Source: Myxococcus sp. (GTDB lineage: Bacteria > Myxococcota > Myxococcia > Myxococcales > Myxococcaceae). From it: 39,308 nucleotides of DNA. Each line of letters begins with the position of its first letter. Within the stretch, counting starts at the first letter, position 1. The position numbers and the translations under genes were made by a program. Below the pieces are notes generated by a model, which saw nothing but the letters and a program-made list of their open reading frames with translations, was not told where the DNA came from and did not search any database. Shown here piece by piece: positions 21,479 to 39,302 of the stretch. The stretch is taken from contig JACSRE010000278.1 in NCBI GenBank assembly GCA_014879945.1, positions 1 to 39,308 on the forward strand, given 5' to 3'.

Positions 21479-23755
21479 ATGAAGTTCGGAAAGAAGCGGC
21501 TTGCCGCTGCGTTGGTGGCCGCGTGCGCGGCGACGGCGTGGGCAGGCGAGTCACTGCAGGAAGTGATGAAGCGCAGGGCGCTGACGCAGCAAGACCTGCT
21601 CGCCGCGGCCAAGACGTACGTGCCGACGGGCAAGCGAGACGACTTCCTCGCCTTCAGCTCGGGCGGCCAGTCGGGGCAGGTCATCGTCTACGGCATCCCC
21701 TCGATGCGCATCCTCAAGTACATCGGCGTCTTCACGCCCGAGCCCTGGCAGGGCTACGGATTCGATGAAGAGTCGAAGAAGGTGCTCAAGGGCGGCTCCA
21801 TCGAAGGCAAGGACATCACCTGGGGCGACTCGCACCACCCGGCCATCTCCGAGACCAACGGCGCCTACGACGGCCAGTTCCTCTTCATCAACGACAAGTC
21901 GAACCCGCGCATCGCCGTCATCGACCTGCGCGACTTCGAGACCAAGCAGATCATCACCAACCCCATCTTCAAGAACGAGCACGGCGGCGCCTTCGTGACG
22001 CCGAACTCCGAGTACGTGATGGAGGCCGCGCAGTACGCGGCGCCGCTCGAGAAGGGGTACGTGCCCCTCGACCAGTTCAACGACAAGTACCGCGGCGGCC
22101 TCACCTACTGGAAGTTCGACCGCACCAAGGGCCGCATCGCGCCCGAGGACTCGTTCTCGTTCGAGCTGCCGCCCTACAGCCAGGACCTGTCGGACTCGGG
22201 CAAGGCCGTCTCTGAGGGGTGGGGCTTCACCAACTCGTTCTGCTCCGAGCGCTACGTCGGCGGCATCGAGCTGGGCCGCCCGCCGTTCGAGGCCGGTTGC
22301 TCCGCGAAGGACACCGACTTCCTGCACATCACCAACTGGAAGAAGGCCGCCGAGCTGGTGAAGGCCGGCAAGGCCAAGAAGATCAACGGGCACAACGTCA
22401 TCCCCATCGAGCTCGCGGTGAAAGAGGGCATCCTCTTCCTCGTGCCCGAGCCGAAGAGCCCGCACGGCTGCGACGTCTCGCCCGACGGCAAGTTCATCAT
22501 CGTGTCGGGCAAGCTCGACACGCACACCATGGTCTACTCGTTCGCGAAGATTCAGGAGGCCATCAAGGCCAACAAGTTCGAGGGCAAGGACCCGTACGGC
22601 ATTCCGGTCATCGCCATGAAGGACGCGCTCGAGAAGCAGGTCGAGCTGGGCCTGGGGCCGCTCCACACCCAGTACGACTCGAAGCCGTGCATCGCGTACA
22701 CCTCGCTCTACGTCGACTCGCAGGTGGCGAAGTGGAACTACTGTGAGGGCAAGGTGCTCGACAAGCTGTCGGTGCACTACAACATCGGCCACCTGATGAC
22801 GATGGAGGGTGACTCGGTCGCGCCCAAGGGCCGCTACCTGGTCGCGCTCAACAAGCTGGCCATCGACCGCTTCAACCCGGTCGGCCCGCTGCACCCGCAG
22901 AACCACCAGCTCATCGACATCAGCAACGACAAGATGCAGCTGCTCTACGACATGCCGCTGCCGCTCGGTGAGCCGCACTACGCCGTCGCCATCAGCGCCG
23001 CCTCGCTCAAGCCGGGCATGCGGTACAAGGTCGGCACCAACAGCCGCACCGACGAGAAGCACCCCGGCGCGGTGCGCGCGGGCGAAGAGAAGATCGTGCG
23101 CAGCCCCGGCAAGGTCGAGGTCTTCGGGACCCTCATTCGCTCGCACATCACGCCTGAGATCATCGAGGTCGAGAAGGGCGACGAGGTGACCATCAACCTC
23201 ACCAACCTCGAGCGCGCGCAAGACGAGACGCACGGCTTCACCATCAGCGGCATGAACGTGCACGCGTCGGTCGAGCCCGGCAAGACGAGCTCGGTGAAGT
23301 TCAAGGCCGACCGCGAAGGCGTCTTCCCCTACTACTGCACCGAGTTCTGCTCCGCGCTCCACCTCGAGATGCAGGGCTACTTCCTGGTCAAGCCCAAGGG
23401 CTACAAGGCCACGGCCACCGCGGCCGCGAAGGCCGACTACACCAAGGCCGACTACGACAAGCAGTACAACACCAACATCGAGACCCAGAAGGTCATCGAC
23501 GGCGTGGTGGCGTGGATCGTGTCGACCAACTTCAAGGAGTTCCCCGACGCGGTCGCGCTGGTGGAAGACGCGACTGATCAGCTCAAGGCCGCCGAGGAGC
23601 CCAAGAAGAAGATGGAAGAGGCCGCCAAGAAAGAGGACTGGCAGAACGTGACGCTCTGGGCTGGCCAGTGGTGGCAGTACCAGGTGAAGGCGGCCGACAT
23701 CGGCCTGCGCGCCAAGACGTACCTCGAGCAGAAGGGCGCCAAGAAGGTGAAGTAA
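21479..23755 (+). CDS. nosZ: Nitrous oxide reductase, clade II (Sec-exported)
   Basis: Reduces N2O to N2 in the periplasm, as a copper homodimer. The protein is 758 residues. The N-terminus MKFGKKRLAAALVAACAATA is a Sec-type signal without a twin-arginine motif, the hallmark of clade II (atypical) NosZ. CuZ-side histidine segments include GDSHHPAISE (His119, His120), FKNEHGGAF, SGKLDTHTMVY, GPLHTQYD, YNIGHLMTMEGDS and GEPHYAVAI. The C-terminal cupredoxin domain has a complete CuA set: His585 (ETHGF), Cys620, Cys624, His628 and Met631 in YYCTEFCSALHLEM. AGGAGG (21468-21473) lies five bases upstream of ATG 21479. First structural gene of the nos operon; all metal ligands look intact. Confidence 0.97.
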   Translation: MKFGKKRLAAALVAACAATAWAGESLQEVMKRRALTQQDLLAAAKTYVPTGKRDDFLAFSSGGQSGQVIVYGIPSMRILKYIGVFTPEPWQGYGFDEESKKVLKGGSIEGKDITWGDSHHPAISETNGAYDGQFLFINDKSNPRIAVIDLRDFETKQIITNPIFKNEHGGAFVTPNSEYVMEAAQYAAPLEKGYVPLDQFNDKYRGGLTYWKFDRTKGRIAPEDSFSFELPPYSQDLSDSGKAVSEGWGFTNSFCSERYVGGIELGRPPFEAGCSAKDTDFLHITNWKKAAELVKAGKAKKINGHNVIPIELAVKEGILFLVPEPKSPHGCDVSPDGKFIIVSGKLDTHTMVYSFAKIQEAIKANKFEGKDPYGIPVIAMKDALEKQVELGLGPLHTQYDSKPCIAYTSLYVDSQVAKWNYCEGKVLDKLSVHYNIGHLMTMEGDSVAPKGRYLVALNKLAIDRFNPVGPLHPQNHQLIDISNDKMQLLYDMPLPLGEPHYAVAISAASLKPGMRYKVGTNSRTDEKHPGAVRAGEEKIVRSPGKVEVFGTLIRSHITPEIIEVEKGDEVTINLTNLERAQDETHGFTISGMNVHASVEPGKTSSVKFKADREGVFPYYCTEFCSALHLEMQGYFLVKPKGYKATATAAAKADYTKADYDKQYNTNIETQKVIDGVVAWIVSTNFKEFPDAVALVEDATDQLKAAEEPKKKMEEAAKKEDWQNVTLWAGQWWQYQVKAADIGLRAKTYLEQKGAKKVK

Positions 23756-24350: not shown

Positions 24351-25070
24351 ATGAAGACTACCAACCGCATCGTCGCCGCCGCCGTCGCCGCCTTCGCCTT
24401 GAGCGCCTTCGCTGGTCCACCGCCGCCCAAGAAGGAGGGCATCGAAGCCAAGGGCTACAAGTGGAACGCCCAGGAGGGCGAGAAGATTGAAGCCCTCAAG
24501 CTCAAGGGCGACGCCAAGCGCGGTGAAGAGGCCTACGAGGTCTGCTCGGCCTGTCACCTGCCCAGCGGCGCCGGTCGCGCCGACGGCACCTTCCCGCAGC
24601 TCGCCGGCCAGCACTCGACGGTGCTCATCAAGCAGATCGCCGACATTCGCGGCGGCCTGCGCGACAACCCCATCATGTACCCGTTCGCGACGACGCTCAC
24701 CGACCCGCAGGAGCTGGCCGACGTGGCGGCCTACATCGAGACCATGAAGATCCCGCGCGACAACGGCCGCGGCCCCGGCACCGACCTCGAGACCGGCAAG
24801 AAGCTGTACCTGCGCGACTGCCAGACCTGCCACATGGCCAACGGCGAAGGCGAGCGCGACAAGTTCTACCCGGTGCTCGCCGGGCAGCACTACAAGTACA
24901 TGCTCCGCCAGGCGACCGAGATTCGCGACGGCAAGCGCCGCAACGCCAACCCAGACATGGTGAAGGTCATCAAGACGTACAGCGACAAGGAAATCGACGC
25001 CATCGTCGACTACATGTCGCGCCTCGAGATGCCCACGCACGACGCCGCGCCCAAGGCCAAGAAGAAGTAG
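24351..25070 (+). CDS. Diheme cytochrome c (c4/c553-like)
   Basis: A 239-residue exported cytochrome with a Sec signal (IVAAAVAAFALSAFA) and two heme sites, CSACH (65-69) and CQTCH (157-161), in two similar cytochrome folds. Both halves share the pattern P-x-LAGQH (FPQLAGQHSTVLIKQ and YPVLAGQHYKYMLRQ), typical of c4/c553-type diheme cytochromes. Methionines in the later part of each domain can act as distal ligands. It is likely the second soluble carrier between the quinone pool and NosZ. It starts 43 bases after the monoheme gene and ends in a lysine-rich tail. Confidence 0.88.
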   Translation: MKTTNRIVAAAVAAFALSAFAGPPPPKKEGIEAKGYKWNAQEGEKIEALKLKGDAKRGEEAYEVCSACHLPSGAGRADGTFPQLAGQHSTVLIKQIADIRGGLRDNPIMYPFATTLTDPQELADVAAYIETMKIPRDNGRGPGTDLETGKKLYLRDCQTCHMANGEGERDKFYPVLAGQHYKYMLRQATEIRDGKRRNANPDMVKVIKTYSDKEIDAIVDYMSRLEMPTHDAAPKAKKK

Positions 25071-25161: not shown

Positions 25162-26205
25162 ATGTCAACAGCCAGCCCCGCCCTCGAGGTGAAGCCCGCC
25201 ACGCCGGCCCCTGCGGCCGCGTCGAGCCCGCCCGCCGTAGCCCGACAGTCGCTGGTGGTGAGCGGCCTGGGCCTCGCCGGCCTCGCGCTGATGGTGGCCT
25301 CGTACTTCCTGCCGATGTGGTGGGTCTCGCTGACGGCGCCGAACTACCCGCCCGACGCCTTCCCCGACGGCATTCGCATTCTGTTCGGCTTCACGGGCGT
25401 CTCGAACGGCTGCACCACCGCCCCGAAGGCCAGCCGCCTGACCCAGGAGACGCAGCAGGAAGACCTGGGCTGGCGCACCGACGAGGGCGCGGTCGACGAC
25501 AAGGCCGGCGGGCACGCCAAGCCCGAGGCGGCGCTCGACTGCATGCACGAGATGAACACCATCAACCACTACGTGGGCATGCACCCCATCGGCGTGGGGG
25601 CGCCCGCGGAGCGCCTGCTGGCGAAGTACATCTTCGGGGTGCTGGGCGTCGGCCTCCTCGCCTTCGCGCTCGGCTCGAAGAAGGCGCGCGTGGTGGTGCT
25701 GGCGGCGGGCTTCACCGGCGTCGCCGGGTGGATGCTGTACGGGCTGTTCGCCGCCGGGGGCCTTCAGGCGCACGTCACCGAGTACACCACCGAGGCCGGC
25801 CGCTACTTCCGCGACGCCGAGCGCATCGCCCAGTGGGGCCAGAACCTGCACACCGCCGTCGTCGTCATCGTGGTGGCGCTCCTGGCGGTGATGGTGGCCC
25901 TGACGCTGGTGAACGCGAAGTGGGAGAAGGCGCAGCTCTTGTTGGGCGTGCTGCCGGCGCTCCTGCCCGTCTTCTTCGTCGGCACCTTCGCCGCGTGGCT
26001 GTACTTCTTCGGCCACAACCTGCACCCGTGGGGCGCCTTCACCGTGAAGCCCTTCATGCCGACGGTGTTCGGTGAGGGCAAGGTGGCCCAGTTCTCGACG
26101 TTCTCGTACCCGATGGCTGGCTTTGGCGTGCTGGTCGCGGGCTCGGTGGCGCTGGTGGTGGCCGTGCTCCGCCGGCGCCTCGAGCTGCTCGAGGGCGGCA
26201 GATGA
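25162..26205 (+). CDS. nosB: Multi-pass membrane protein of the nos cluster (NosB-like)
   Basis: A 347-residue protein with about six transmembrane segments (near 31-55, 153-171, 175-198, 229-250, 257-283 and 315-336). A large loop between the first two segments carries Cys84, Cys127 and an INHYVGMHPI motif with potential metal or heme ligands. Its place between the cytochrome genes and nosD matches the membrane protein NosB of clade II nos clusters, for which a role in electron transfer or assembly is suspected but not established. The name rests on position and topology, not on a motif I can verify. The stop overlaps the nosD start (ATGA). Confidence 0.65.
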   Translation: MSTASPALEVKPATPAPAAASSPPAVARQSLVVSGLGLAGLALMVASYFLPMWWVSLTAPNYPPDAFPDGIRILFGFTGVSNGCTTAPKASRLTQETQQEDLGWRTDEGAVDDKAGGHAKPEAALDCMHEMNTINHYVGMHPIGVGAPAERLLAKYIFGVLGVGLLAFALGSKKARVVVLAAGFTGVAGWMLYGLFAAGGLQAHVTEYTTEAGRYFRDAERIAQWGQNLHTAVVVIVVALLAVMVALTLVNAKWEKAQLLLGVLPALLPVFFVGTFAAWLYFFGHNLHPWGAFTVKPFMPTVFGEGKVAQFSTFSYPMAGFGVLVAGSVALVVAVLRRRLELLEGGR

Positions 26206-27533
26206 GGTGGCGGCTCGCCATCGTGGCCGTCTTCGTCGCGGTGCTGGCCATCGCCCAGCCCGCCGAAGACGCGCCGGCCGAAGCGATGGCGCAGCCGGTG
26301 GTGGGCAACTGGGGCGCCTCGTGGGAGGCCGCGGTGAAGCCCACCGCGCCCAACGTCACCGGCATTCCCTGGCTGCAGGACCTGGTGGACGCGGCGCCCG
26401 AGGGCGGCGTGCTGGCGCTGGCGCCCGGCCGCTACTCGGGGCCCGTGCTGGTGACGAAGAAGCTCCTCATCGACGGCGGCGGCAAGGCCGTCATCGACGG
26501 CGGCGGCAAGGGCACCGTCTTCACCCTCGAGGCGAGCGGCGCCACCCTGCGCGGGCTCGTCTTCACCGGCTCGGGCGACTCGCACTCCAGCGACGACACC
26601 TGCCTCAACGTGCGCGGCCACCAGAACCGCATCGAAGACAACCGCTTCGAAGACTGCCTCTTCGGCGTCGACCTCAAGCAGTCGAACGAGAACGTGGTGC
26701 GCCGCAACCACCTGCGCTCGCTGCCGCTGCCGCTGGGCCTGCGCGGCGACGCCATTCGGCTGTGGTACTCGATGAAGAACCTCGTCGAAGAGAACGAGGT
26801 CGTCGACGCCCGCGACGTCGTCGTCTGGTACTCGAACGGCAACGTCATCAGGAAGAACGTCGGCCGCCGCGGGCGCTACTCGCTGCACTTCATGTACGCC
26901 CAGCACAACGTCGTCGAAGACAACCAGTTCTACGACAGCTCGGTCGGCATCTACGTGATGTACACCGACGGCGTCGAGATTCGGCGCAACCTCATCTCGC
27001 ACTCGCTGGGCGCGACGGGAATGGGCATCGGCTTCAAAGAGGCCTCTGACTCGGTGCTCGAGGGCAACCACGTCGTCTACTGCGCCATCGGCATCAGCTC
27101 CGACCTCTCGCCGTACGAGCCCGACTCGACCATCACCATCAAAGACAACCGCATCGCCTACAACGGGGTGGGCATCTCGTTCATCGGCGACAAGGAAGGC
27201 ACGCTCGTCGAGGGCAACGTCTTCGAGGGCAACATCGACCCGGTCACCAAGAGCGGCGGCGGCGGGGCCACCAACAACGTCTTCCGCGCCAACTACTGGG
27301 ACGACTACCAGGGCTTCGACCGCGACCGCGACGCGGTGGGCGACACGCCGTACGAGCTGTACGCCTACTCCGACCGGCTGTGGATGGAGGAGCCCACCGC
27401 GCGCTTCTTCAAGAACGCGCCGCTGATGGAGGCCATCGACTTCCTCGAGCGCCTGGCGCCCTTCTCGAGCCCGGAGCTGCTGGTGCGCGACGACCGGCCC
27501 CGCTTCATCAAGCCTGACCTGGGGGCGCCATGA
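26202..27533 (+). CDS. nosD: NosD copper-site maturation protein (first copy)
   Basis: A 443-residue exported right-handed beta-helix protein of the NosD/CASH family. It acts with the NosFY transporter to supply sulfur or otherwise assemble the CuZ centre of NosZ in the periplasm. After a short Sec signal (LAIVAVFVAVLAIAQP) come repeated beta-helix turns of the form N-x-I-x-x-N (NRIEDNRFEDC, NLVEENEVVDAR, NVVEDNQFYDSS and others). The family C-terminus is ANYWDDYQGFDRDRDAVGDTPY. ATG 26202 overlaps the upstream stop. A second NosD lies at the end of the operon (31533-32819) and shares the same motifs. Confidence 0.93.
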   Translation: MRWRLAIVAVFVAVLAIAQPAEDAPAEAMAQPVVGNWGASWEAAVKPTAPNVTGIPWLQDLVDAAPEGGVLALAPGRYSGPVLVTKKLLIDGGGKAVIDGGGKGTVFTLEASGATLRGLVFTGSGDSHSSDDTCLNVRGHQNRIEDNRFEDCLFGVDLKQSNENVVRRNHLRSLPLPLGLRGDAIRLWYSMKNLVEENEVVDARDVVVWYSNGNVIRKNVGRRGRYSLHFMYAQHNVVEDNQFYDSSVGIYVMYTDGVEIRRNLISHSLGATGMGIGFKEASDSVLEGNHVVYCAIGISSDLSPYEPDSTITIKDNRIAYNGVGISFIGDKEGTLVEGNVFEGNIDPVTKSGGGGATNNVFRANYWDDYQGFDRDRDAVGDTPYELYAYSDRLWMEEPTARFFKNAPLMEAIDFLERLAPFSSPELLVRDDRPRFIKPDLGAP

Positions 27534-28354
27534 GCGGCGACGCACCGAAGCCAGTGGTGAGCGACGTGCGCGCGAAGGAGCAGCGCCGCAAGCTGCTCCA
27601 GGCGGCGGCCGTCGGCGTGGGCGTGGTGGGCCTGTCGATGACGGGGCTGCTGCCGGTGCTGCTGCGCAAGGAGCAGCGCCTGCGCCCGCCCGGCGCGCTC
27701 GACGAGCACGACTTCCTCGCCTCGTGCATCAAGTGCGGCCAGTGCGTGCAGGTGTGCCCGGTGAACGCGCTCAAGCCGGCCGACCTCTTCGACGGCTTCG
27801 GCGTGGGCGTGCCGTACCTCGAGCCGCGCGAGCAGGCCTGTGACTTCTCGTGCGACGTCGGCCAGTGCATCCTCGCCTGCCCGACGGGCGCGCTCACCTA
27901 CCACAAGCCGGCCTTCCTCCCGGTGAGCGAGGGCATGCAGGTGCCGGCGCCCCCGGTGCTGCTGGCCAAGCAGCACGAGCCCGAGCCGAACCTCAACTTC
28001 ACCGAGCGCATGGGCGTGGCCCGGCTCGCCCGGCCCGAGGCCTGCCTGTCGGTGCGCGGCGAAGGCGTGAAGGGGAGCGCCCGCGGCGAGCGCTTCAAGG
28101 GCAAGAAGCGGTGGACCGAGGTCGACCGCTGGGCGCCGCAGCCGGTGCGCGAGCACCGCTACGAGCTCGAGCGCTGCGACCTCTGCGTGCGCGAGTGCCC
28201 CATCAAGGGCGCCATCAGCATCGAAGACGTGGCCGGCAAGCCGACCCCGGTGGTGCACGACGCCTGCGTCGGCTGCGGGGTGTGCGAGATGATGTGCCCT
28301 GCCGAGCCCGCCGCCATCGTCATCGACGCCCGCACGCCGTGGAGCGCGACATGA
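27530..28354 (+). CDS. nosG: NosG (NapG-like) periplasmic iron-sulfur protein
   Basis: A 274-residue ferredoxin-type protein with four [4Fe-4S] motifs: CIKCGQCVQVCP, CDFSCDVGQCILACP, CDLCVRECP and CVGCGVCEMMCP. The N-terminus has QRRKLLQAAAVGVGVVGLS, a twin-arginine (Tat) signal as in NapG, so it is exported folded. With NosH it probably carries electrons from menaquinol towards the periplasmic side to support NosZ, a feature of clade II clusters that lack NosR. No nosR is present in this window. Start and stop both overlap neighbours by ATGA. Confidence 0.88.
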   Translation: MSGDAPKPVVSDVRAKEQRRKLLQAAAVGVGVVGLSMTGLLPVLLRKEQRLRPPGALDEHDFLASCIKCGQCVQVCPVNALKPADLFDGFGVGVPYLEPREQACDFSCDVGQCILACPTGALTYHKPAFLPVSEGMQVPAPPVLLAKQHEPEPNLNFTERMGVARLARPEACLSVRGEGVKGSARGERFKGKKRWTEVDRWAPQPVREHRYELERCDLCVRECPIKGAISIEDVAGKPTPVVHDACVGCGVCEMMCPAEPAAIVIDARTPWSAT

Positions 28355-29397
28355 ACCGCACCCTCGACCAGCTGCGCCTGATGTTCGGCGGCGAGCCGCG
28401 CAAGCCCGCGCCCGAGGCCTACACCCCGGGCGCGAAGCACCTTCACGCCACCAAGAAGCTCAAGAAGCAGGACTTCCTCGACATGGAGGCGCGCGACGCC
28501 GGCTACCGCAAGCGCCAGGTGTGGAGGAAGCGCCGCTGGGCGGTGCTGCTGACGGTCAACCTGCTCTTCATGGCGTCGTACTGGCTCGACGTGCAGCTCG
28601 TCGAAGGGTCGCTCTCGGGCAGCCGCTTCCTCGGCTTTCACATGATCGACCTGAACGCCGCGCTGGGGCTGATGCTGGCGCACAAGCACATCATCGTGAA
28701 CCTGCTCATCGGCACCGCCACCGTGGGCACGGTCTGGCTGCTGCTCGGCGGGCGCAGCTTCTGCTCGTGGGTGTGCCCGTACCACCTGCTGTCGGAGTGG
28801 GCCGAGCAGCTCCACCTCTTCCTGGCGAAGAAGAAGCTGGTGAAGGACCACCCGCTGCACCGCGGGCTGCGCACCGTCATCTGGGTGACGTTCGCGGTGC
28901 TGGCCTACGGCACCGGCTACACCGTCTACGAGACCATCTCGCCCACCGGCATCGTCTCGCGCGCGCTCATCTACGGGCCCGGCCTGGCGCTGGCGTGGGT
29001 CGCGGCGCTGCTGGTCTTCGAGGTGCTGTACTCGCGGCGCGCCTGGTGCCGGTACCTGTGCCCGGTCGGGCTGACCTACGGCGTCGTAGGCACCTTCTCT
29101 CCCGTGCGCATCCACTACGACCTCGAGAAGTGCGCGCACGAGGGTGAGTGCAAGAAGGTCTGCCTGGTGCCGCACGTGCTCGACCACATCACCAAGGGCC
29201 GCGCGCCCGCCGAGCACCTCGACATCGGGCCCGACTGCACCCGCTGCGGCATGTGCGTCGACGTCTGCCCCGGCGGCGCGCTCACCTTCTCCATCGCGGG
29301 CGTCACCCGCAAGCCGCCCCCCACGAAGCTGGTGGCCTTGAACACCCCCGAGGCGGCGCCGCCGCCGGCTGGCTCGACCGAAGGAGCGCCCCGATGA
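28351..29397 (+). CDS. nosH: NosH (NapH-like) membrane iron-sulfur protein
   Basis: A 348-residue integral membrane protein with an N-terminal cytoplasmic stretch, about four to five helices, the polyferredoxin-like CxxxCP motifs CSWVCPYHLLSEW and CRYLCPVGLTYG, and C-terminal clusters with CTRCGMCVDVCPGG plus a Cys-rich CAHEGECKKVC segment. By analogy with NapH it would take electrons from menaquinol and pass them to NosG. ATG 28351 is chosen because it overlaps the nosG stop (ATGA); longer open sequence upstream is the shadow of nosG. It ends with a Pro/Ala-rich tail that overlaps the nosF start. Confidence 0.88.
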   Translation: MNRTLDQLRLMFGGEPRKPAPEAYTPGAKHLHATKKLKKQDFLDMEARDAGYRKRQVWRKRRWAVLLTVNLLFMASYWLDVQLVEGSLSGSRFLGFHMIDLNAALGLMLAHKHIIVNLLIGTATVGTVWLLLGGRSFCSWVCPYHLLSEWAEQLHLFLAKKKLVKDHPLHRGLRTVIWVTFAVLAYGTGYTVYETISPTGIVSRALIYGPGLALAWVAALLVFEVLYSRRAWCRYLCPVGLTYGVVGTFSPVRIHYDLEKCAHEGECKKVCLVPHVLDHITKGRAPAEHLDIGPDCTRCGMCVDVCPGGALTFSIAGVTRKPPPTKLVALNTPEAAPPPAGSTEGAPR

Positions 29398-30272
29398 TTC
29401 GCCTCAAGGCCCTCACCAAGCGCTTCAAGCGCCTCACCGTGCTCGACGCCCTCGAGCTCGAGGTGGCGCAGGGCGAGCGCATCGCGCTGGTCGGCTCCAA
29501 CGGCGCCGGCAAGACGACGATGATTCGCTGCCTGCTGGGCGAGTACACCTTCTCGGGCACGGTGGAGATCGACGGCAAGAGCCCGCGCGCGCACCGGGCC
29601 CAGGTGCTGCACAAGGTGGGCTTCGTGCCGCAGCTGCCGCCCCCGCTGAAGATGCCGGTGAAGGAGCTGCTGCGCTTCTCGGCCGCCGTCTCGGGCACCC
29701 GGGTGCAGGCCATCGAAGACCTCGCGCTGCGGCTGGGCCTCGACGTCAAGGCCTTCGCCGCGCAGCCGTTCTTCAAGCTGTCAGGCGGCCAGAAGCAGAA
29801 GCTCCTCATCGCCATCGCCCTGGGTCGCGACGCCGAGCTCCTCATCATGGACGAGCCGGCCGCCAACCTCGACCCCGAGGCCCGGCACGTCTTCTTCTCG
29901 CTGCTGGCCGAGCGCGCCGCGAAGGCGACGATGATCATCTCGAGCCACCGCCTCGACGAGGTGGCGTCGCTGGTGAACCGCGTCATCGAGCTCGACCGCG
30001 GCAAGGTGGTGCTCGACGACCGCGTAGCCGACGCGCCGCTGTCGGGCGTGCTGGCCTGCACCGTCAGGCTGCGCCGGGCCGACCCCGCCATCGCCAAGGC
30101 GCTCGGCGAGTGGGGCTTCACCGCGGGCCCCGAGGGCGTGGAGTGGACGGGCGTGGTCGCCGGGCCCGACCGGCTCCGCTTCATGGGCATGCTGTCGCGC
30201 TACGTGGGGCTGTTGGTGAAGGTGTCGCTCGACGAGCAGGCCGCGCCGGCGTCGCTGCGGGTGGTGTCATGA
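29394..30272 (+). CDS. nosF: NosF ABC transporter ATPase
   Basis: A 292-residue ATPase that pairs with NosY and NosD to mature the NosZ copper centre. Walker A is GSNGAGKTT, the Q-loop is in FVPQLPPP, the signature is LSGGQKQK, Walker B is LLIMDEP and the switch histidine is in IISSHRLDEV. An extra C-terminal domain of about 85 residues follows, as in other NosF proteins. ATG 29394 is chosen on three grounds: it overlaps the nosH stop by four bases, AAGGAG lies upstream, and it begins at the conserved IRLKALTKRF. Acts at the cytoplasmic face of the inner membrane. Confidence 0.92.
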   Translation: MIRLKALTKRFKRLTVLDALELEVAQGERIALVGSNGAGKTTMIRCLLGEYTFSGTVEIDGKSPRAHRAQVLHKVGFVPQLPPPLKMPVKELLRFSAAVSGTRVQAIEDLALRLGLDVKAFAAQPFFKLSGGQKQKLLIAIALGRDAELLIMDEPAANLDPEARHVFFSLLAERAAKATMIISSHRLDEVASLVNRVIELDRGKVVLDDRVADAPLSGVLACTVRLRRADPAIAKALGEWGFTAGPEGVEWTGVVAGPDRLRFMGMLSRYVGLLVKVSLDEQAAPASLRVVS

Positions 30273-30688
30273 GGGCGCTCGCGGTGCTGGGCGCGCTGGG
30301 CGTGCTGGCGTGCACCGAGGGCGCCAGCACCGGCCCCGCCGCCATCACGTGGGACCGCGACGTCTGCAAGACCTGCAGCATGGTCATCTCGGACCGCCAC
30401 TTCGCGGCGCAGGTTCGCGGCGGCCCGAAGAACCAGGTGGCGAAGTTCGACGACCTCGGCTGCGCGATGAAGTGGCTCGACGCGCAGCCGTGGGCCGACG
30501 ACGCCGCCACGCAGGTGTGGGTGGCGCGGCGCTCCGACGGGGCGTGGATCGACGGGAAGACGGCCCGCTACGTCGGCGGCCAGACCTCGCCCATGGGCTT
30601 CAACTTCGGCGCCCACGACCCCGGCACCGAAGGCAACGACTTCACCACCCAGCGCAACCTCGTGCGCGAGCTGTCGCGAAAGCGCTGA
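30269..30688 (+). CDS. nosL: NosL copper chaperone lipoprotein
   Basis: A 139-residue lipoprotein that delivers Cu(I) for NosZ assembly. The signal MRALAVLGALGVLAC has lipobox Cys15. The metal motif is CKTCSM (Cys33, Cys36, Met38), in keeping with the Cys-x-Met Cu(I) site of the family. The later KFDDLGCAMKWL, TARYV and SPMGFNFGA segments are also typical of NosL. ATG 30269 overlaps the nosF stop by ATGA. Here nosL precedes nosY, separating the two transporter genes. Confidence 0.9.
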   Translation: MRALAVLGALGVLACTEGASTGPAAITWDRDVCKTCSMVISDRHFAAQVRGGPKNQVAKFDDLGCAMKWLDAQPWADDAATQVWVARRSDGAWIDGKTARYVGGQTSPMGFNFGAHDPGTEGNDFTTQRNLVRELSRKR

Positions 30689-30700
30689 AAGGGAGCACCG

Positions 30701-31528
30701 ATGGGACACCTGGCAATGACGGCGAGGCTCGACGTAGCCGAGTCGGTGCGCGCGAAGTGGTTCTTCGTCTACTCGCTCATCTTCGGAGGCATCGTCGCGG
30801 CCTTCTTCGCGTTCGGCGTCACCGAGTCGCGGGTGCTGGGCTTCATGGGCCTCTCGCGCCTGCTGGTGACGTACATCCAGCTCGCGATGGCCATCATGCC
30901 CATCTTCATCCTCCTCACCACGGTGCGCAGCGTGGCGGGCGACCGCGAGGCCGGCGTCTTCGAGTACCTGCTGTCGCTGCCGGTGTCGCTGTCGAGCTGG
31001 TACTGGGGCCGGCTGGTGGGGCGCTTCCTCACCGTCTTCTTCCCGGTGTTCCTGGCGATGCTGGGCGCGGCGCTGTGGGCCACCTTCAAGGACATCGAGG
31101 TGCCCTGGCGCATGTTCGGCATCTACACCGGGCAGCTCGCGGCGATGTCGTGGTGCTTCCTCGGCCTGGGCATGCTGCTGTCGACGTTCGCGCGCTCGAC
31201 CGACGTGGCGCAGGGCTCGGCCTTCGTCTTGTGGCTGACGTGCCTGCTGTTCCTCGACCTCATCCTGCTGGGCGTGTTGATTCAGGGGCGCATGCCGGCC
31301 GAGGGCGTGGTGGCCATCGCGCTGGTGAACCCGCTGCAGGTGTTCCGCACCGGCGCGCTGATGTTGTTCGACCCGCAGCTGGTGGTGTTCGGGCCCGCCG
31401 CGTTCGTCATCTACGATTGGTTCGGCGGGCCGAAGTTCATCATCTACTCCATGGTGTACCCGGCGCTGCTGGGCACGGTGAGCGCGGCCATCGGCTACTT
31501 CAACTTCCGCCGCGGCGACCTGGTGTAG
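30701..31528 (+). CDS. nosY: NosY ABC-2 type permease
   Basis: A 275-residue inner-membrane permease with about six helices, partner of NosF and NosD in NosZ copper-centre assembly. ABC-2 features include TTVRSVAGDREAGVFEYLL, the family hallmark that follows the second helix, and LLSLPVSLSSWYWGRLVG. It begins at ATG 30701, 12 bases after nosL; GAAAGGGAG lies upstream. The C-terminus FRRGDLV is typical of this group. The stop is four bases before the start of the second nosD. Confidence 0.9.
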   Translation: MGHLAMTARLDVAESVRAKWFFVYSLIFGGIVAAFFAFGVTESRVLGFMGLSRLLVTYIQLAMAIMPIFILLTTVRSVAGDREAGVFEYLLSLPVSLSSWYWGRLVGRFLTVFFPVFLAMLGAALWATFKDIEVPWRMFGIYTGQLAAMSWCFLGLGMLLSTFARSTDVAQGSAFVLWLTCLLFLDLILLGVLIQGRMPAEGVVAIALVNPLQVFRTGALMLFDPQLVVFGPAAFVIYDWFGGPKFIIYSMVYPALLGTVSAAIGYFNFRRGDLV

Positions 31529-31532
31529 CCGG

Positions 31533-32819
31533 GTGCGGCGCGGGCTCCTCCTCGTGGTGGGCCTCGAGCTGTCGGGCTGCGGCGCCCCCGTCGCCGCCGG
31601 CCCTGGCGTCGAGAGCGCCCGCGCGCTCCAGCCGCTCATCGACGCGGCGGCGCCCGGCGCCACGGTGACCCTGCCGCCGGGGACGTGGGCGGGCCCGGTC
31701 GTCATCGACAAGGGCCTCACCCTCGACGGCCAGGGCGCGGCGGTGGTGACGGGCAACGGCGTCGGCACCGTCATCTCGGTTCGAGCCCCCTTCGTCACGC
31801 TGAAGGGCCTGCGCCTCACCGGCAGCGGCTCGAGCCACGACCAGATGGACGCGGCCGTGCTGGTGGAGGCCGACGACGTGCGCGTCTCGGGCAACACCTT
31901 CGACGACGTGCTCTTCGGGGTGCTGGTGAAGGCGTCGCGGCGGGCGCTCGTCTGCGGCAACCGCATCACCTCGAAGCGCGAAGACCACCCGCTGCGGGGC
32001 GACGCAGTGCGCCTGTGGAACGGGGGCGGGCACCGCGTCTTCGGCAACGACCTGCTCGACGCGCGCGACCTCTCGCTGGCCAACACCCGCGACAACGTGG
32101 TGAGCCACAACCGCATTCGCGGCGGGCGCTACGGCCTGCAGCTCATCTTCGCGCCCCACAACGTCATCGAAGACAACCTGCTCGACGGCAACCTCACCGG
32201 GGTGGCGGTGCTGTACTCGAATGACATGGTGATTCGGCGCAACGTGGTGCGGCACTCGCGCGGCGTGTCGGGCGCGGGGCTCTCGTTCAAGGAGAGCGGG
32301 CAGGCCATCGTCGAGGACAACGACGTGGTGCACTGCGCCGTGGGCGCGCGCACCAACGCCCCCACCTCGCCCGAGGCCATCATCTCGTTCACCCGCAACC
32401 GCTTCGCCCACAACGTCGCCGGCATGGACTTCTACGGAGAGAACGGCGGGCACGTCATTCACGACAACCGCTTCGAGCGAAACCTGTCGCAGGTGACGGT
32501 GAGCGGCGTGATGAGCGCGCGCAACAACGAGTGGCTGGGCAACGCCTGGGACGACTACGAGGGCTTCGACCGCGACGGCGACGGCGTCGGTGACACGCCC
32601 CACGACGTCTACGCCTTCGCCGACCGCATCTGGCAAGAGAACCCCCAGGCCACCTTCTTCCGCAACGCGCCGGCGCTCGAGCTGCTCGACTTCCTCGAGC
32701 GCCTGGCGCCCTTCGCCTCGCCCGAGCTCACGCTGTCAGACCCCAGGCCCCGCGTCTCGAAGCCCGAGGCCGCGGAGCCGGCGCTCCCCGAGTTCCACCC
32801 GTCGTGCCCCGCTGATTGA
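31533..32819 (+). CDS. Second NosD-like beta-helix protein, a predicted lipoprotein
   Basis: A 428-residue NosD/CASH-family protein and clear tandem relative of the first copy. Shared segments are GDAVRLWN, DDYEGFDRDGDGVGDTP and NAPALELLDFLERLAPFASPEL. Unlike the first copy it carries a lipobox (LLLVVGLELSGCGAP, Cys16), so it is probably membrane-tethered rather than soluble. The start is GTG 31533, four bases after nosY, so translation is likely coupled. It may replace or complement NosD for NosFY, or serve another periplasmic task. Two NosD genes in one nos operon are unusual in the clusters I know. Confidence 0.85.
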   Translation: MRRGLLLVVGLELSGCGAPVAAGPGVESARALQPLIDAAAPGATVTLPPGTWAGPVVIDKGLTLDGQGAAVVTGNGVGTVISVRAPFVTLKGLRLTGSGSSHDQMDAAVLVEADDVRVSGNTFDDVLFGVLVKASRRALVCGNRITSKREDHPLRGDAVRLWNGGGHRVFGNDLLDARDLSLANTRDNVVSHNRIRGGRYGLQLIFAPHNVIEDNLLDGNLTGVAVLYSNDMVIRRNVVRHSRGVSGAGLSFKESGQAIVEDNDVVHCAVGARTNAPTSPEAIISFTRNRFAHNVAGMDFYGENGGHVIHDNRFERNLSQVTVSGVMSARNNEWLGNAWDDYEGFDRDGDGVGDTPHDVYAFADRIWQENPQATFFRNAPALELLDFLERLAPFASPELTLSDPRPRVSKPEAAEPALPEFHPSCPAD

Positions 32820-32831
32820 GAGAGAGCCCCC

Positions 32832-33362
32832 ATGCCATCGAGAGTCCTCCTGGTCGTGACGCTGCTGGCCGTGCCCGCCCTCGCGCAGACCCCGCCGCCT
32901 CCGCTCGACGTCGCCCAGGGCAACCAGCGCGTGCACGACGTGGCGAAGACCGGCACGCCGTCGGCGCTGCAGCAGTTGCTGGCGAAGGAGCCCGCGCAGC
33001 TCAACGTGAAGAACGTGCGGGGCGCCACGCCGCTCCACCTGGCCGCCATCAACCCGGACCCGGGCGTCGTCGAGGCGCTGCTGCGCGCCGGCGCCGAGGT
33101 GAACGTGGCTGACGACGAGGGCTACACCCCGCTGCACATGGCCGCGTTCCACCGCCAGGCCGACTCGGCCCTGCTGTTGCTCGAGGCTGGCGCGAACGTG
33201 AACGCGGTCTCGACGTCGGGGCGCACGCCGCTGTCGATGGCCGAGAAGGCGCGCGCCGACGAGGTGTCGGGCGTCATCTCGCTGTGGATTCTCAAGGGCT
33301 GCAAGCCGCGGTCGGGTTGCGGTGTGGGCACGCCACGCGCGGTGAAGAAGCTGGTGAAGTGA
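32832..33362 (+). CDS. Exported ankyrin-repeat protein at the end of the nos operon
   Basis: A 176-residue protein with a Sec signal (RVLLVVTLLAVPALA) and about three to four ankyrin repeats. Clear turns are GATPLHLAAINPDPGVVEAL, GYTPLHMAAFHRQADSALLL and GRTPLSMAEKARADEVSGVI, each ending in an L-x-x-GA-x-V-N type loop. The C-terminal tail has two cysteines (GCKPRSGCG). AGAGAG precedes ATG 32832, 12 bases after the second nosD stop, so it belongs to the same transcript by spacing. Ankyrin repeats bind other proteins; a periplasmic partner among the Nos maturation proteins is a guess. Converges with the DUF2277 gene. Confidence 0.85.
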   Translation: MPSRVLLVVTLLAVPALAQTPPPPLDVAQGNQRVHDVAKTGTPSALQQLLAKEPAQLNVKNVRGATPLHLAAINPDPGVVEALLRAGAEVNVADDEGYTPLHMAAFHRQADSALLLLEAGANVNAVSTSGRTPLSMAEKARADEVSGVISLWILKGCKPRSGCGVGTPRAVKKLVK

Positions 33363-34565: not shown

Positions 34566-34618
34566 CCCGGTCGCTGGAGCGCGTCGCGGTAGCACGCGGC
34601 GTGCAGGGCGCCGGCGCC

Positions 34619-36289
34619 ATGAGCCAGGAGATTCTGTTGGGCGACGAGGCCGTCGCGCGGGGCGCCATCGATGCCGGCTTGAGCGCCGCCTATGCGTACC
34701 CGGGAACGCCCTCGACCGAAATCTTCGAGGCCATTCACGCGCTGACGAAGCAGCACCAGCTGCCGATTCGGGGCTTCTGGTCGACCAACGAGAAGGTGGC
34801 GCTGGAAGAGGCCATCGGCGTCTCGTACTGCGGCAAGCGGGCCCTGGTGTCGATGAAGCACGTGGGCCTCAACGTCGCCGCCGACCCCTTCATGAACGTC
34901 GCGGTGTCGGGCGCGTGGGGCGGGCTGGTGTTGGCGGTGGCCGACGACCCGTCGATGCACAGCTCGCAGAACGAGCAGGACTCGCGCTACTTCGCCGACT
35001 TCGCCCAGGTGCTGTGCCTCGAGCCGGCTGATCAGCAGGAGGCCTACGAGCTGACGCAGGAGGCCTTCGAGGTGTCGGAGCGGCTGCGGGTGCCGGTGGT
35101 GCTCCGGCTGGTCACCCGGCTGGCGCACAGCCGCGCGATGGTGGCCCTGGGCGAGCGCCGCGCGCAGAACGCGCTGCGCTACGTCGACGACGCGGGCCTC
35201 TACACGCTCATCCCCAGCAACGCGCGCCGCGCCTACGCCGGGTTGCTCGAGAAGCAGCCGGCGCTCCAGCGCTACTCCGAGGAGCACCGCCTCAACGCGC
35301 TGACGATTCGCGGCGACGGCAAGCCCGGCCTCATCGTGTCGGGCATCGCGTGGACGTACCTGCGCGAAGCGCTCGGCGCGCGGCTCGAGGACTACAACGT
35401 GCTGCGCGTCAGCGTGTACCCGCTGCCGGTCGGAAAGGTGCGCGCGCTGCTCGACCGCTCCAGCGAGCTGATGGTCGTCGAAGAGGGCTACCCCTTCATC
35501 GAGCGCTTCGTGAGCGCGCTGGGCCTGTTTCGCGAGAAGCCGGTGAAGGGGAAGCTGACCGGGCACCTGCCGCGCATGGGCGAGCTCAACCCCGACGTGC
35601 TGCGCGAGGCCTTCGGCCTGCCGGTGAAGGCGTCGCTCACCGTGCCGGGCCTCGAAGAGGTGTTGAGGCCGCGCCCGCCGCGCCTGTGCGACGCGTGCCC
35701 CCACGGTGACTCCTACGAGCTCATCAACGAGGTGCGCCGCGAGCTCGACGCCTCGATGCGGGTGATGGGCGACATCGGCTGCTACGCGCTCGGGTACTCC
35801 AAGCCGTACCAGGCCATCCACTCCTGCCTGTGCATGGGCTCGTCCATCGGCATGGCCATCGGCGCCGCGCACGCCGGCGTCTCGCCCTCGCTCTGCGTCA
35901 TCGGCGACGGCACCTTCACCCACACCGGCATGAACGCCCTGCTCGACGCGGTCATCGAGAACACCAACATCAAGGTCTTCATCCTCGACAACAGCATCGT
36001 CGCCATGACGGGCGGCCAGCCCACCACCATGTCCGACGCGCACCTCGAGAACCTGGTGCTCGGCCTGGGCGTGAAGAAGGCCCACCTGCGCACGCTGACG
36101 CCGGTGCCGCAGCGGCACGCCGAGAACCTCGCGGTGGTGCGCGAGGAGCTCGCCTACCAGGGCCTCTCGGTCATCATCGCGAGGCGGGCCTGCGTCCGGT
36201 ACGTGAAGGAGATCAAGGAACACAAACGCGAGCGCGGCGCGAGCGCGCCCCTCGAGGGCGACTGCGCCAACTGCGCGGGGGGCTGCTGA
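34619..36289 (+). CDS. iorA: Indolepyruvate ferredoxin oxidoreductase, alpha subunit (ferredoxin domain missing)
   Basis: Decarboxylates aromatic 2-oxoacids (from Trp, Phe, Tyr) to aryl-acetyl-CoA with reduction of ferredoxin, together with IorB. The protein is 556 residues. The N-terminal pyrimidine-binding part has AYAYPGTPSTEIFEAI and TNEKVALEEAIGVS. The thiamine-diphosphate part has GDIGCYALG, GDGTFTHTG (Asp430) and ILDNSIVAMTGGQ. Family members normally end in two [4Fe-4S] clusters. Here the protein stops soon after ARRACVRYV, with a short tail CANCAGGC. ATG 34619 matches the conserved start; GTG 34601 is less likely. The stop overlaps the iorB start (TGATG). Confidence 0.9.
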   Translation: MSQEILLGDEAVARGAIDAGLSAAYAYPGTPSTEIFEAIHALTKQHQLPIRGFWSTNEKVALEEAIGVSYCGKRALVSMKHVGLNVAADPFMNVAVSGAWGGLVLAVADDPSMHSSQNEQDSRYFADFAQVLCLEPADQQEAYELTQEAFEVSERLRVPVVLRLVTRLAHSRAMVALGERRAQNALRYVDDAGLYTLIPSNARRAYAGLLEKQPALQRYSEEHRLNALTIRGDGKPGLIVSGIAWTYLREALGARLEDYNVLRVSVYPLPVGKVRALLDRSSELMVVEEGYPFIERFVSALGLFREKPVKGKLTGHLPRMGELNPDVLREAFGLPVKASLTVPGLEEVLRPRPPRLCDACPHGDSYELINEVRRELDASMRVMGDIGCYALGYSKPYQAIHSCLCMGSSIGMAIGAAHAGVSPSLCVIGDGTFTHTGMNALLDAVIENTNIKVFILDNSIVAMTGGQPTTMSDAHLENLVLGLGVKKAHLRTLTPVPQRHAENLAVVREELAYQGLSVIIARRACVRYVKEIKEHKRERGASAPLEGDCANCAGGC

Positions 36290-37083
36290 TGAACTTCGAC
36301 CTCGTCCTCTGTGGGGTCGGCGGGCAGGGCGTGCTCTCGACGGCCTATGTCATCGACCACGCGGCGGTCGACGCCGGGCTCCACTTCAAGCAGCCCGAGA
36401 TTCACGGCATGTCGCAGCGCGGGGGCGCGGTCTCGGCCCAGGTGCGGCTGGGCAGCGCGCCCATCGCCAGCGACCTCATCTCGGCGGGCGAGGCGCGGGC
36501 GGTGCTCTCGGTCGAGCCGCTCGAGAGCCTTCGCTACCTGTCGCTGCTGTCGAAGGACGGCTGGGTGTTCACCGACGTGACGCCGCTGAAGAACATGGCC
36601 GACTACCCCGACACCGCGAAGCTGTACGAGGTGCTCTTCAGCCTGCCCCGGGTGGTGGCGGTGAACGCCACCAGGCTCGCCGCCAGGGCCGGCGCCAGCA
36701 AGGCGCAGAACATGGTGGTGCTCGGCGCCGCCGCGAGCCTGCTGCCCTTCGCGGTCGAGCTGCTCGAGAAGCACCTGCGCGCGCTGTTTCAGGTGAAGGG
36801 CGAGCACGTGGTGAAGGCGAACCTGAAGGCCTTCCAGATGGGGCTCTCGGCGCGGGCCTTCAAAGCGGCGCTGGTCGAGCGTGGGGTGCCCGCCGCCGTC
36901 GCGGCCCGGGTGGTGGCGCGGCTCGACTTCGACCCGGCGCCGGTGCCCGAGGCGGTGGTGAACGCGTGGGTCGCGCGGCTGACCCGCGCCGACGGTGAAG
37001 CCCTCTCGAAGCGCCTGCTGGCGTCAGGCGACGCGCTGCCCCTCGACGCGCAGGTGCCGGCCGCGCTGGCCTCGAGCCCATGA
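36289..37083 (+). CDS. iorB: Indolepyruvate ferredoxin oxidoreductase, beta subunit
   Basis: A 264-residue gamma-type subunit of the 2-oxoacid oxidoreductase family. The family start is LVLCGVGGQGVLSTAYVI, followed by PEIHGMSQRGGAVSAQVRLG. It partners with IorA. The protein is longer than the usual 190-200 residues; the extra C-terminal part (from about residue 185, KAFQMGLSARAFKAAL onward) is helical, with no motif I know. ATG 36289 overlaps the iorA stop. The stop overlaps the start of the synthetase gene (ATGA), so all three genes are translationally coupled. Confidence 0.92.
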   Translation: MNFDLVLCGVGGQGVLSTAYVIDHAAVDAGLHFKQPEIHGMSQRGGAVSAQVRLGSAPIASDLISAGEARAVLSVEPLESLRYLSLLSKDGWVFTDVTPLKNMADYPDTAKLYEVLFSLPRVVAVNATRLAARAGASKAQNMVVLGAAASLLPFAVELLEKHLRALFQVKGEHVVKANLKAFQMGLSARAFKAALVERGVPAAVAARVVARLDFDPAPVPEAVVNAWVARLTRADGEALSKRLLASGDALPLDAQVPAALASSP

Positions 37084-39302
37084 GCATCGAGACGCTCCAG
37101 CGCCTGGTGGAGGACACGCGCGCCCGCGGCGCCTCGGTGTTGACCGAGCCCGAGCTGTACCGCGCGCTCGGCGCGGCGGGCCTCGAGGTGCCCGAACACC
37201 AGGTGCTGACCGGCGAGGCGCGCTGCGCCCTGCGCGGCCCGGTGGTGCTCAAGGTCGTCTCGCGCGACGTGCTGCACAAGAGCGACGTGGGCGGGGTGCG
37301 CTTCCTCGAGGGGGCCGAGGTGACGCCTGCGGTGGTGGAGCGCTTCCTGGCCGAGGTCTCGGCTCGCTGGCGCGCCGAACATGGCCGCAGCCCGGCGCTC
37401 GAGGGGGCCCTGGCCATGCGCCGCGTGGAGTTCGACCGCGCGCGGCTCGGCGCCGAGGTCATCGTCGGCCTGCGCCGGAGCCCCGAGTTCGGCATGGTGG
37501 GGTTGATCGGCCTGGGCGGGGTGAAGACCGAGGTCTTCGGGGCCCGCCTGCCCCGCCGCGAGGCGACCGCCATCTTCTCTCCGTCAGACCCCGACGCCGC
37601 GCTGCGCGAGCTGACGCAGACGCTGGTGTACCGCGACCTCGCGGGGCTGCTGCGGGGCAGCGAACGGCTGGTGGGTGACGAGGCCTGGCTCGGGCTGCTG
37701 CGGCTCCTGCGCGAGGTCGCCGCCGTGCCCGGCCTCGAGGAGCTGGAGCTCAACCCCTTCGTGGTGACGCGGGCCGGAGCGCTGGTGCCCGTGGACGCGC
37801 TGGCGAGGGTCGGCGCGCCCCAGGCGGAGCGCGCGCGGCCGCCGGTCGAGAAGCTGCGCGCGTTCTTCGAGCCGAGGTCGGTCGCGGTGGCCGGGGTGTC
37901 GTCGAAGCAGGTCAACATGGGGCGCATTATCTTGCGCAACCTGCTGCGCGACGGCTTCACCCCCGCCCAGCTCACCGTGCTCAAGCCAGGGGACGAGGCC
38001 ATCGACGGCGTGCGCTGCGTGGCGGGCCCGGCCGAGCTTTCCTCGCCGGTCGACCTCGCGGTGCTGGCGGTGTCGGCGACCGCCGTGACCGGGCTGATGC
38101 ACGAGCTGGTCGCGCACCAGAAGGCCGAGGCGATGATCGTCATCCCCGGCGGCATGGCCGAGAAGGAAGGCGGCGCCGAGAAGCAGCGCGCGCTGGAGGA
38201 CGTGCTCGCCCGGGCGCGCGCGACGCCCTGGCGCGGCCCGGTGGTGTGTGGGCCCAACTCGATGGGCGTGGTGTCGGTGCCGGGCGGCTACGACACCACC
38301 TTCATCCCCGCGCACCGGCTGCCGCCCCGCGACGGCAGCGTGCGCAACCTCGCCTTCCTCAGCCAGAGCGGGGCCTTCACCATCACGCGCGGCAGCCACC
38401 TGCGGCAGGTGGTGCCGCGGTACCTCGTCAGCGCGGGCAACCAGGCCGACCTCGGCGTTCCCGACTTCGTCGCCTACGTCGCGAACGACCCGCAGGTGCA
38501 GGTCATCGCCGCGTACGTCGAGGGCTTCATGCCCGGCGACGGCGCTCGTTTCCTGAAGGCCGCGCGCGCGGCGCAGGCCAGCGGCCAGCGCGTCATCCTC
38601 TACAAGGGAGGGCGCTCGCCCGAAGGGCAGGGCACCGCGGCCGGCCACACCGCGGCCATGGCCGGCGACTACCGTGTGTGCTGGCACCTGTGCCGCGCGG
38701 CGGGCGTGCTGATGGCCGAGTCGTTCGCCGAGTTCGAGGGCCTGGTGCGCGTCGCGTGCGCCCTCGCCGGACGGCCGCGGGGCCCCCGGGTGATGCTGAT
38801 GAGCAACGCGGGCTTCGAGGTCGTCGGCATGGCCGACCACCTGCGCGGCGAGGCGCACGCCCTGTCGCTGGCGACGCTGAGCGCGGTCACCCGAGAGCGG
38901 GTGGGCGCGGCGCTCGCCCGCTGCAAGCTCGACGAGCTCGTCGACGCGAAGAACCCGCTCGACGTGACGCCCGCGGCGCCCGACGCGGCCCACCTGGACA
39001 TCGCGGCGGCGGTGCTCGACGACGACGGCGTCGACGCGCTCGTGCTCGGCCTCGTGCCCATGTCGCCCGCGGTGGCGTCGCTCGGCAGCAGCGAGGTCGA
39101 CGCCGAGACCATCGCCTCGGCGCAGAGCCTCGCGCGCTCGCTCCCGGCGCTCTTCAAGGCCACGAAGAAGCCGCTGGTCGTCGTCGTCGACGCCGGGCGC
39201 CTCTACGACCCGCTCGTCGCCGCGCTCGAGGCCGGCGGTGTGCCCGTCTTCCGGCGCGCCGATGAAGCCGTGCGCGCGCTCGGCGCCTGGCTCACCGGCT
39301 GA
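37080..39302 (+). CDS. ADP-forming acyl-CoA synthetase, ATP-grasp half first
   Basis: A 740-residue fused NDP-forming acyl-CoA synthetase. It converts acyl-CoA plus ADP and phosphate to acid, CoA and ATP. The N-terminal 230 residues are the ATP-grasp (beta) part, with VLKVVSRDVLHKSDVGGV (His66 in the position of the beta histidine) and ELELNPFVV. The CoA-binding (alpha) part starts near residue 260 (FFEPRSVAVAGVSSKQVNMG). The phospho-histidine is His523 in GTAAGHTAAMAGD. The common bacterial fused form has the alpha part first, so this domain order is reversed. Overlap with iorB (ATGA) suggests that it uses the aryl-acetyl-CoA made by IorAB to form ATP. Substrate is inferred. Confidence 0.9.
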   Translation: MSIETLQRLVEDTRARGASVLTEPELYRALGAAGLEVPEHQVLTGEARCALRGPVVLKVVSRDVLHKSDVGGVRFLEGAEVTPAVVERFLAEVSARWRAEHGRSPALEGALAMRRVEFDRARLGAEVIVGLRRSPEFGMVGLIGLGGVKTEVFGARLPRREATAIFSPSDPDAALRELTQTLVYRDLAGLLRGSERLVGDEAWLGLLRLLREVAAVPGLEELELNPFVVTRAGALVPVDALARVGAPQAERARPPVEKLRAFFEPRSVAVAGVSSKQVNMGRIILRNLLRDGFTPAQLTVLKPGDEAIDGVRCVAGPAELSSPVDLAVLAVSATAVTGLMHELVAHQKAEAMIVIPGGMAEKEGGAEKQRALEDVLARARATPWRGPVVCGPNSMGVVSVPGGYDTTFIPAHRLPPRDGSVRNLAFLSQSGAFTITRGSHLRQVVPRYLVSAGNQADLGVPDFVAYVANDPQVQVIAAYVEGFMPGDGARFLKAARAAQASGQRVILYKGGRSPEGQGTAAGHTAAMAGDYRVCWHLCRAAGVLMAESFAEFEGLVRVACALAGRPRGPRVMLMSNAGFEVVGMADHLRGEAHALSLATLSAVTRERVGAALARCKLDELVDAKNPLDVTPAAPDAAHLDIAAAVLDDDGVDALVLGLVPMSPAVASLGSSEVDAETIASAQSLARSLPALFKATKKPLVVVVDAGRLYDPLVAALEAGGVPVFRRADEAVRALGAWLTG

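Follow-up and report, generated by a model that had tools for sequence, protein, structure and literature searches.

Why does a single nitrous oxide reductase (nos) operon encode two NosD proteins? In the window (by which we mean the whole stretch of 39,308 nucleotides that we analyzed, from Myxococcus sp.), the gene order is nosZ - cytC - nosB - nosD1 - nosG - nosH - nosF - nosL - nosY - nosD2 - ank, all on the forward strand. The nitrous oxide reductase itself is of the clade II type (nosZ, 21479-23755), and it is followed by a di-haem cytochrome c (24351-25070; identified by profile matches). Next, a membrane protein (25162-26205) occupies the place of NosB; it was assigned by its placement and its conservation across related clusters, and no NCBIfam or Pfam model matched it. 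The next genes are nosD1 (26202-27533; profile match), nosG (27530-28354; ferredoxin-type; profile matches), nosH (28351-29397; a NapH-type ferredoxin membrane protein), nosF (29394-30272; the ABC ATPase), nosL (30269-30688; a copper lipoprotein), and nosY (30701-31528; the ABC permease, with one copy in the genome). The second NosD gene, nosD2 (31533-32819), encodes 428 amino acids and has a GTG start codon 4 bases past the nosY stop codon (31526-31528). Because the genes from nosB to ank (25162-33362) are on the same strand and either overlap or are separated by at most 13 bases, their layout is that of one operon. The last of them, ank (32832-33362), encodes a secreted ankyrin-repeat protein and is family-specific: it follows nosD2 in most Myxococcaceae clusters but does not do so in L132 or G106. 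Downstream of the operon (34601-39302) are a pair of genes similar to indolepyruvate ferredoxin oxidoreductase and a gene for a protein similar to NDP-forming acyl-CoA synthetases.

The preliminary description of this locus noted a soluble NosD and, in the same operon, a lipid-anchored relative that retains the C-terminal NosD signature. We agree that the operon encodes two full-length NosDs and that NosD2 has both a lipobox and the C-terminal module, with lipidation being a prediction. NosD2 matches the NosD family TIGR04247 with 330.1 bits (the curated cutoff is 300 bits) across positions 1-376 of the 377 in the profile; NosD1 scores 377 bits, and no third NosD in the genome is above the cutoff. 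The two proteins are 45% identical across 394 residues. NosD2 also matches Pfam's NosD (PF05048) with 100 bits. Among proteins of solved structure, the closest to it in sequence is the Pseudomonas stutzeri NosD of the NosDFY complex. Predicted structures of NosD2 (pLDDT 90.2) and NosD1 (pLDDT 89.5) both have 7o0y (7o0y_A) and 7osf (7osf_A) as their best Foldseek matches. In both the window and its relatives, nosD2 lies after nosY. We also considered whether NosD2 might be a CASH or beta-helix protein from outside the Nos system, a grouping that the preliminary description had raised. This is ruled out, as searches of NCBIfam, Pfam, and the PDB all give NosD as the top match, and NosD2 groups with NosD in the tree.

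The preliminary description had proposed a phylogeny of both copies. In our tree, which includes 116 NosDs, the 40 NosD2s form a single clade (SH-aLRT of 100) on a long branch within NosD. Its sister group is the NosD1s from this type of cluster, and the P. stutzeri NosD is outside. The support for the clade was 100/100 in a tree made without the alignment columns of the lost site (see below). By this tree, NosD2 is an ancient clade of NosD paralogues. A recent duplication in the window is ruled out: the split between NosD1 and NosD2 is older than their spread over three groups. The myxobacterial NosD1s and NosD2s are each nested among proteobacterial sequences, and the nos cluster thus seems to have moved together with both paralogues. 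The observation of a second NosD is confirmed, and it is broader than first noted, with NosD2 being a family of its own.

Next we describe where NosD2 occurs. We scanned one genome per species and found the same nos arrangement with nosD2 in five myxobacterial metagenome-assembled genomes (MAGs), and nosY-nosD2 pairs in MAGs from the Hydrogenophilales, Gallionellaceae, and Burkholderiales. Overall, nosD2 is found directly after nosY in Myxococcota, Betaproteobacteria, and Gammaproteobacteria. Eight genomes of Myxococcota contain both NosDs: five from the window's genus (counting the window's own), two more from the same family, and one from a distant family. Among the 31 genomes that we first found with NosD2, all 31 contain a NosD1-like second NosD, and 29 contain NosZ. 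Just one NosY is present in 32 of 34 genomes with NosD2. A second NosFY that is dedicated to NosD2 was not found in those 32; the other two have an additional set, which is of another type. One cultured carrier of nosD2 is Pseudothauera rhizosphaerae CC-YHH848. We also sampled, separately, 143 genomes from the class of a Dechloromonas MAG and obtained six further NosD2s, five of them in genomes with NosD1 and one of them in the complete order nosB-nosD1-nosG-nosH-nosF-nosL-nosY-nosD2. In one fragmentary genome from this sample (G256), NosD2 is present, and NosD1, NosY, and NosZ were not found. For two NosD2 matches that were flagged for internal stops, we do not claim decay, as tblastn gave one 377-residue match for each.

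In the Rhodocyclaceae and in some gammaproteobacteria, the gene that best matches nosD2 stands alone, at a distance from the nos cluster. The neighbors of these lone genes were considered as a clue to function and set aside: they are conserved within lineages only. In four Azonexus-like genomes (loci L021, L023, L030, and L032), the genes downstream of the lone nosD2, about 2 kb from it, include one similar to sulfite reductase genes and others for a TauE/SafE-like exporter and a CysB-like regulator. This could possibly reflect a link to sulfur or merely the synteny of close relatives. Separately, three Azonexus/Dechloromonas-type genomes (G204, G213, and G219) have two NosZ matches each of the same type, one of which, in G213, is partial at the end of a contig.

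What distinguishes NosD2 from other NosDs? We identified 24 invariant columns, which are conserved in at least 96% of 74 other NosDs, a set that extends from P. stutzeri (clade I) to myxobacteria (clade II). Two NosDs from Sedimenticola that are outside the NosD2 clade were excluded from the 74 because they have lost both of the methionines described below independently (H, V, L); these (G234 and G235; L202 and L208) represent a further NosD paralogue. At 20 of the 24 positions, 38 or more of the 40 NosD2 sequences keep the invariant residue, and Tyr226, another member of the invariant set, is retained in half of them. The remaining columns are H229-x-M231 and M253 of NosD1, where His229 is retained in 5 of 40 NosD2s, Met231 in none, and Met253 in one. 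Thus, of the 24 columns, those with His or Met are precisely the three that are worst affected, which has a 1 in 2024 chance under random order. In a held-out set of 30 sequences, all 24 of the new non-NosD2 NosDs have H, M, and M, versus none of the six new NosD2s; overall, not one of 46 NosD2s keeps all three. In the window, Q203-L204-I205 (codons at 32139-32147, + strand) are aligned in place of the invariant H-x-M, and L227 (32211-32213, + strand) is in place of the second invariant Met. NosD2 therefore lacks both the H-x-M and the second Met that would be expected of a copper-relay NosD.

In the model of NosD1, H229, M231, and M253 are in neighboring coils (strands 201-206 and 223-228 in the model's numbering, which is the protein's numbering minus 25), and the alternation of residues in and out along the strands suggests that all three point outward. 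Trp209, which is one coil up, is likewise lost in NosD2. Histidine and methionine are classic ligands for Cu(I). NosD bound to NosFY reportedly receives copper that NosL relays (PMC13068155). These two points make a copper site the natural reading of the H/M/M residues, and the three residues of NosD1 are probable Cu(I) ligands. By these alignments, the NosD2 family is marked by having lost the probable copper residues and not by the lipid anchor. Since NosD2 has lost the H, M, and M of ordinary NosDs, the "distinct copper step" that was initially suggested for it is disfavored; a sulfur step in NosZ maturation is possible.

The lipid anchor, with which the second NosD was first described, is not its defining feature, because only the window's family has the lipobox. 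In the window, the N-terminus of NosD2 (MRRGLLLVVGLELSGC followed by GAP) has a Cys after a hydrophobic stretch and fits a lipobox. The predicted lipoprotein signal is MRRGLLLVVGLELSG, with Cys16 of an LSGC lipobox as the putative lipid acceptor (31533-31580, + strand). The equivalent Cys is present in each of the seven NosD2s from the window's family (Myxococcaceae), with some weak lipoboxes among them (CTAC and WWAC). The NosD2s of the distant myxobacterium (G106) and of proteobacteria have ordinary export signals; our regular expression for the N-terminus also flags a few proteobacterial Cys, none of which is at a cleavage site. The signal of NosD1 is of the ordinary Sec type and lacks the Cys. 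The NosL of these clusters is itself a lipoprotein.

The C-terminal NosD module (residues 334-406; 32532-32750, + strand) shows the opposite pattern to the middle face of the protein. Across the C-terminal 73 residues, NosD1 and NosD2 have a mean identity of 66%, as compared to 63% between NosD1 and its gammaproteobacterial relatives; for the middle face, the corresponding values are 38% and 53%. The preliminary description had wondered if NosD2 lacks residues for contacting NosFY; as judged by this C-terminal region, where the paralogues are as similar as NosD1 and its relatives, such residues are probably kept. That both paralogues hold to the same sequence is explained most simply by the same partner, and with one NosY per genome, the candidate for this partner is NosFY. 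So, we infer that the C-terminal module docks on NosFY. Solved structures of NosDFY include 16 NosD chains in 16 entries and 34 NosY chains in 17 entries, or one NosD per two NosY in the complexes, which suggests that NosD1 and NosD2 would alternate on NosFY instead of occupying it together. As for what NosD2 might do there, apo-NosZ is reported to bind NosDFY (PMC11573801), and NosZ lacks CuZ if any of nosDFY is lost (PMC8390676). This makes a step on apo-NosZ a natural place for a second NosD.

Our best explanation is that NosD2 is a NosD without the copper site that most likely shares NosFY with NosD1, for a step in NosZ maturation other than the copper relay; we consider the chances of this to be about even. 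NosD2 keeps the beta-helix and the C-terminal module and has lost the probable site for relaying Cu(I). It would dock, in turns with NosD1, on the same single NosFY and would serve a step for which NosL need not relay copper. For example, apo-NosZ might be held or opened in this step, or the sulfide part of CuZ might be built with the help of NosD2. In the window's family, NosD2 would additionally be tethered by the predicted lipid. The proposal draws on features of the sequences themselves, namely monophyly, co-occurrence with NosD1, purifying selection, the loss of H/M/M, the conserved C-terminus, and the single NosY per genome. The many nosD2 that are lone genes away from nos count against the sharing of NosFY, and so does the NosD2 in G256 against the explanation as a whole.

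Alternatively, NosD2 might act off the transporter: tethered or free in the periplasm, it would bind NosZ or NosL as a scaffold and would make no contact with NosFY. The lone genes in Rhodocyclaceae and gammaproteobacteria are consistent with this, as is the lipobox in the window's family, which is without a residue for retention in the inner membrane. Specifically, mature NosD2 begins with CGAPVAA, with Gly at +2 and Ala at +7 (the +7 Ala is found in 5 of the 7 family members). In Myxococcus xanthus, lipoproteins with Lys at +2 are in the inner membrane, and those with Ala at +7 are in the extracellular matrix (PMC3222651). If the M. xanthus rule holds, NosD2 of the window's family may leave the inner membrane, and NosFY would then be hard to reach, which argues against docking in this family. 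This tension between the sorting signal and docking on NosFY is the main one in our account. Against this alternative, the C-terminal module keeps to the same sequence as in NosD1, and nosD2 lies right after nosY in three lineages. We view it as unlikely, though as the likeliest of the rivals.

A bolder reading is that NosD2 is an exchangeable adaptor: NosFY would work with NosD1 for copper loading and then with NosD2 for a CuZ sulfide or closing step. If so, one ABC machine would run two maturation steps by exchanging its periplasmic subunit. We regard this scheme as speculative and fairly unlikely.

Another rival is that NosD2 still handles copper or copper-sulfur species, by a new site. NosD2 has gained N184, H267, and Y301-G302-x-x-G305-G306-H307, which are 92-100% conserved in NosD2 and, except for G306, are not conserved in NosD1; H267, Y301, and H307 could be ligands. 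But no such site is known, the closeness of these residues in space is an assumption, and H/M/M is gone, so a new copper site seems doubtful.

The preliminary description raised the possibility of a hetero-assembly, with NosD1 and NosD2 together on one NosFY. The shared operon, the constant co-occurrence of the two NosDs, and the one NosFY for both would fit. Given one NosD per two NosY in solved NosDFY and the many nosD2 away from nos, we regard this as improbable. Lastly, some related genomes with the same type of cluster do not contain NosD2, as might be expected of a decaying duplicate without a function, but this is highly implausible, and a relic is ruled out, given the purifying selection on NosD2 (dN/dS of 0.23-0.38 among six myxobacterial sequences, similar to 0.21-0.39 for NosD1) and the 20 of 24 invariant positions that are kept across phyla.

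A natural and widespread NosD without the probable copper residues offers a way to separate the copper role of NosD from its other roles, and deleting nosD2 could part the non-copper role from the copper role. Conversely, the H/M/M residues, which are invariant in all but two of the sampled non-NosD2 NosDs, from clade I to clade II clusters, are candidates for the copper site of NosD. Also, if a lone nosD2 is overlooked, constructs for expressing clade II NosZ from these organisms may miss a needed factor.

Our literature search, which covered few subscription papers, did not find any name for such a NosD2 paralogue; nosD1 and nosD2 appeared only for Bacillus azotoformans. Like the genomes with NosD2, B. 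azotoformans has several NosDs, but there every copy has a separate nos cluster, and most of these copies are accompanied by a NosY or NosF of their own; that study does not describe a clade of NosDs without the copper site (PMC3475470). The closest relatives of NosD2 are the NosD1s of the cytC-NosB-NosD-NosG-NosH-NosF-NosL-NosY clusters, which form its sister clade, occur in the same genomes with the single NosFY, and are under similar selection. Unlike NosD2, NosD1 retains H-x-M/M and lacks a lipobox, and its beta-helix is preceded by an N-terminal extension. Among characterized proteins, NosD2 most resembles the NosD of P. stutzeri (NosDFY, 7o0y; NosDFYL, 7osf): the model of NosD2 is a full-length right-handed beta-helix, and the two share the C-terminal module and 20 of the 24 invariant positions. 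The P. stutzeri protein has H207, M209, and M231 (numbering derived from the alignment), whereas NosD2 lacks them and has conserved residues of its own; the NosD2 of the window is also predicted to be lipid-anchored.
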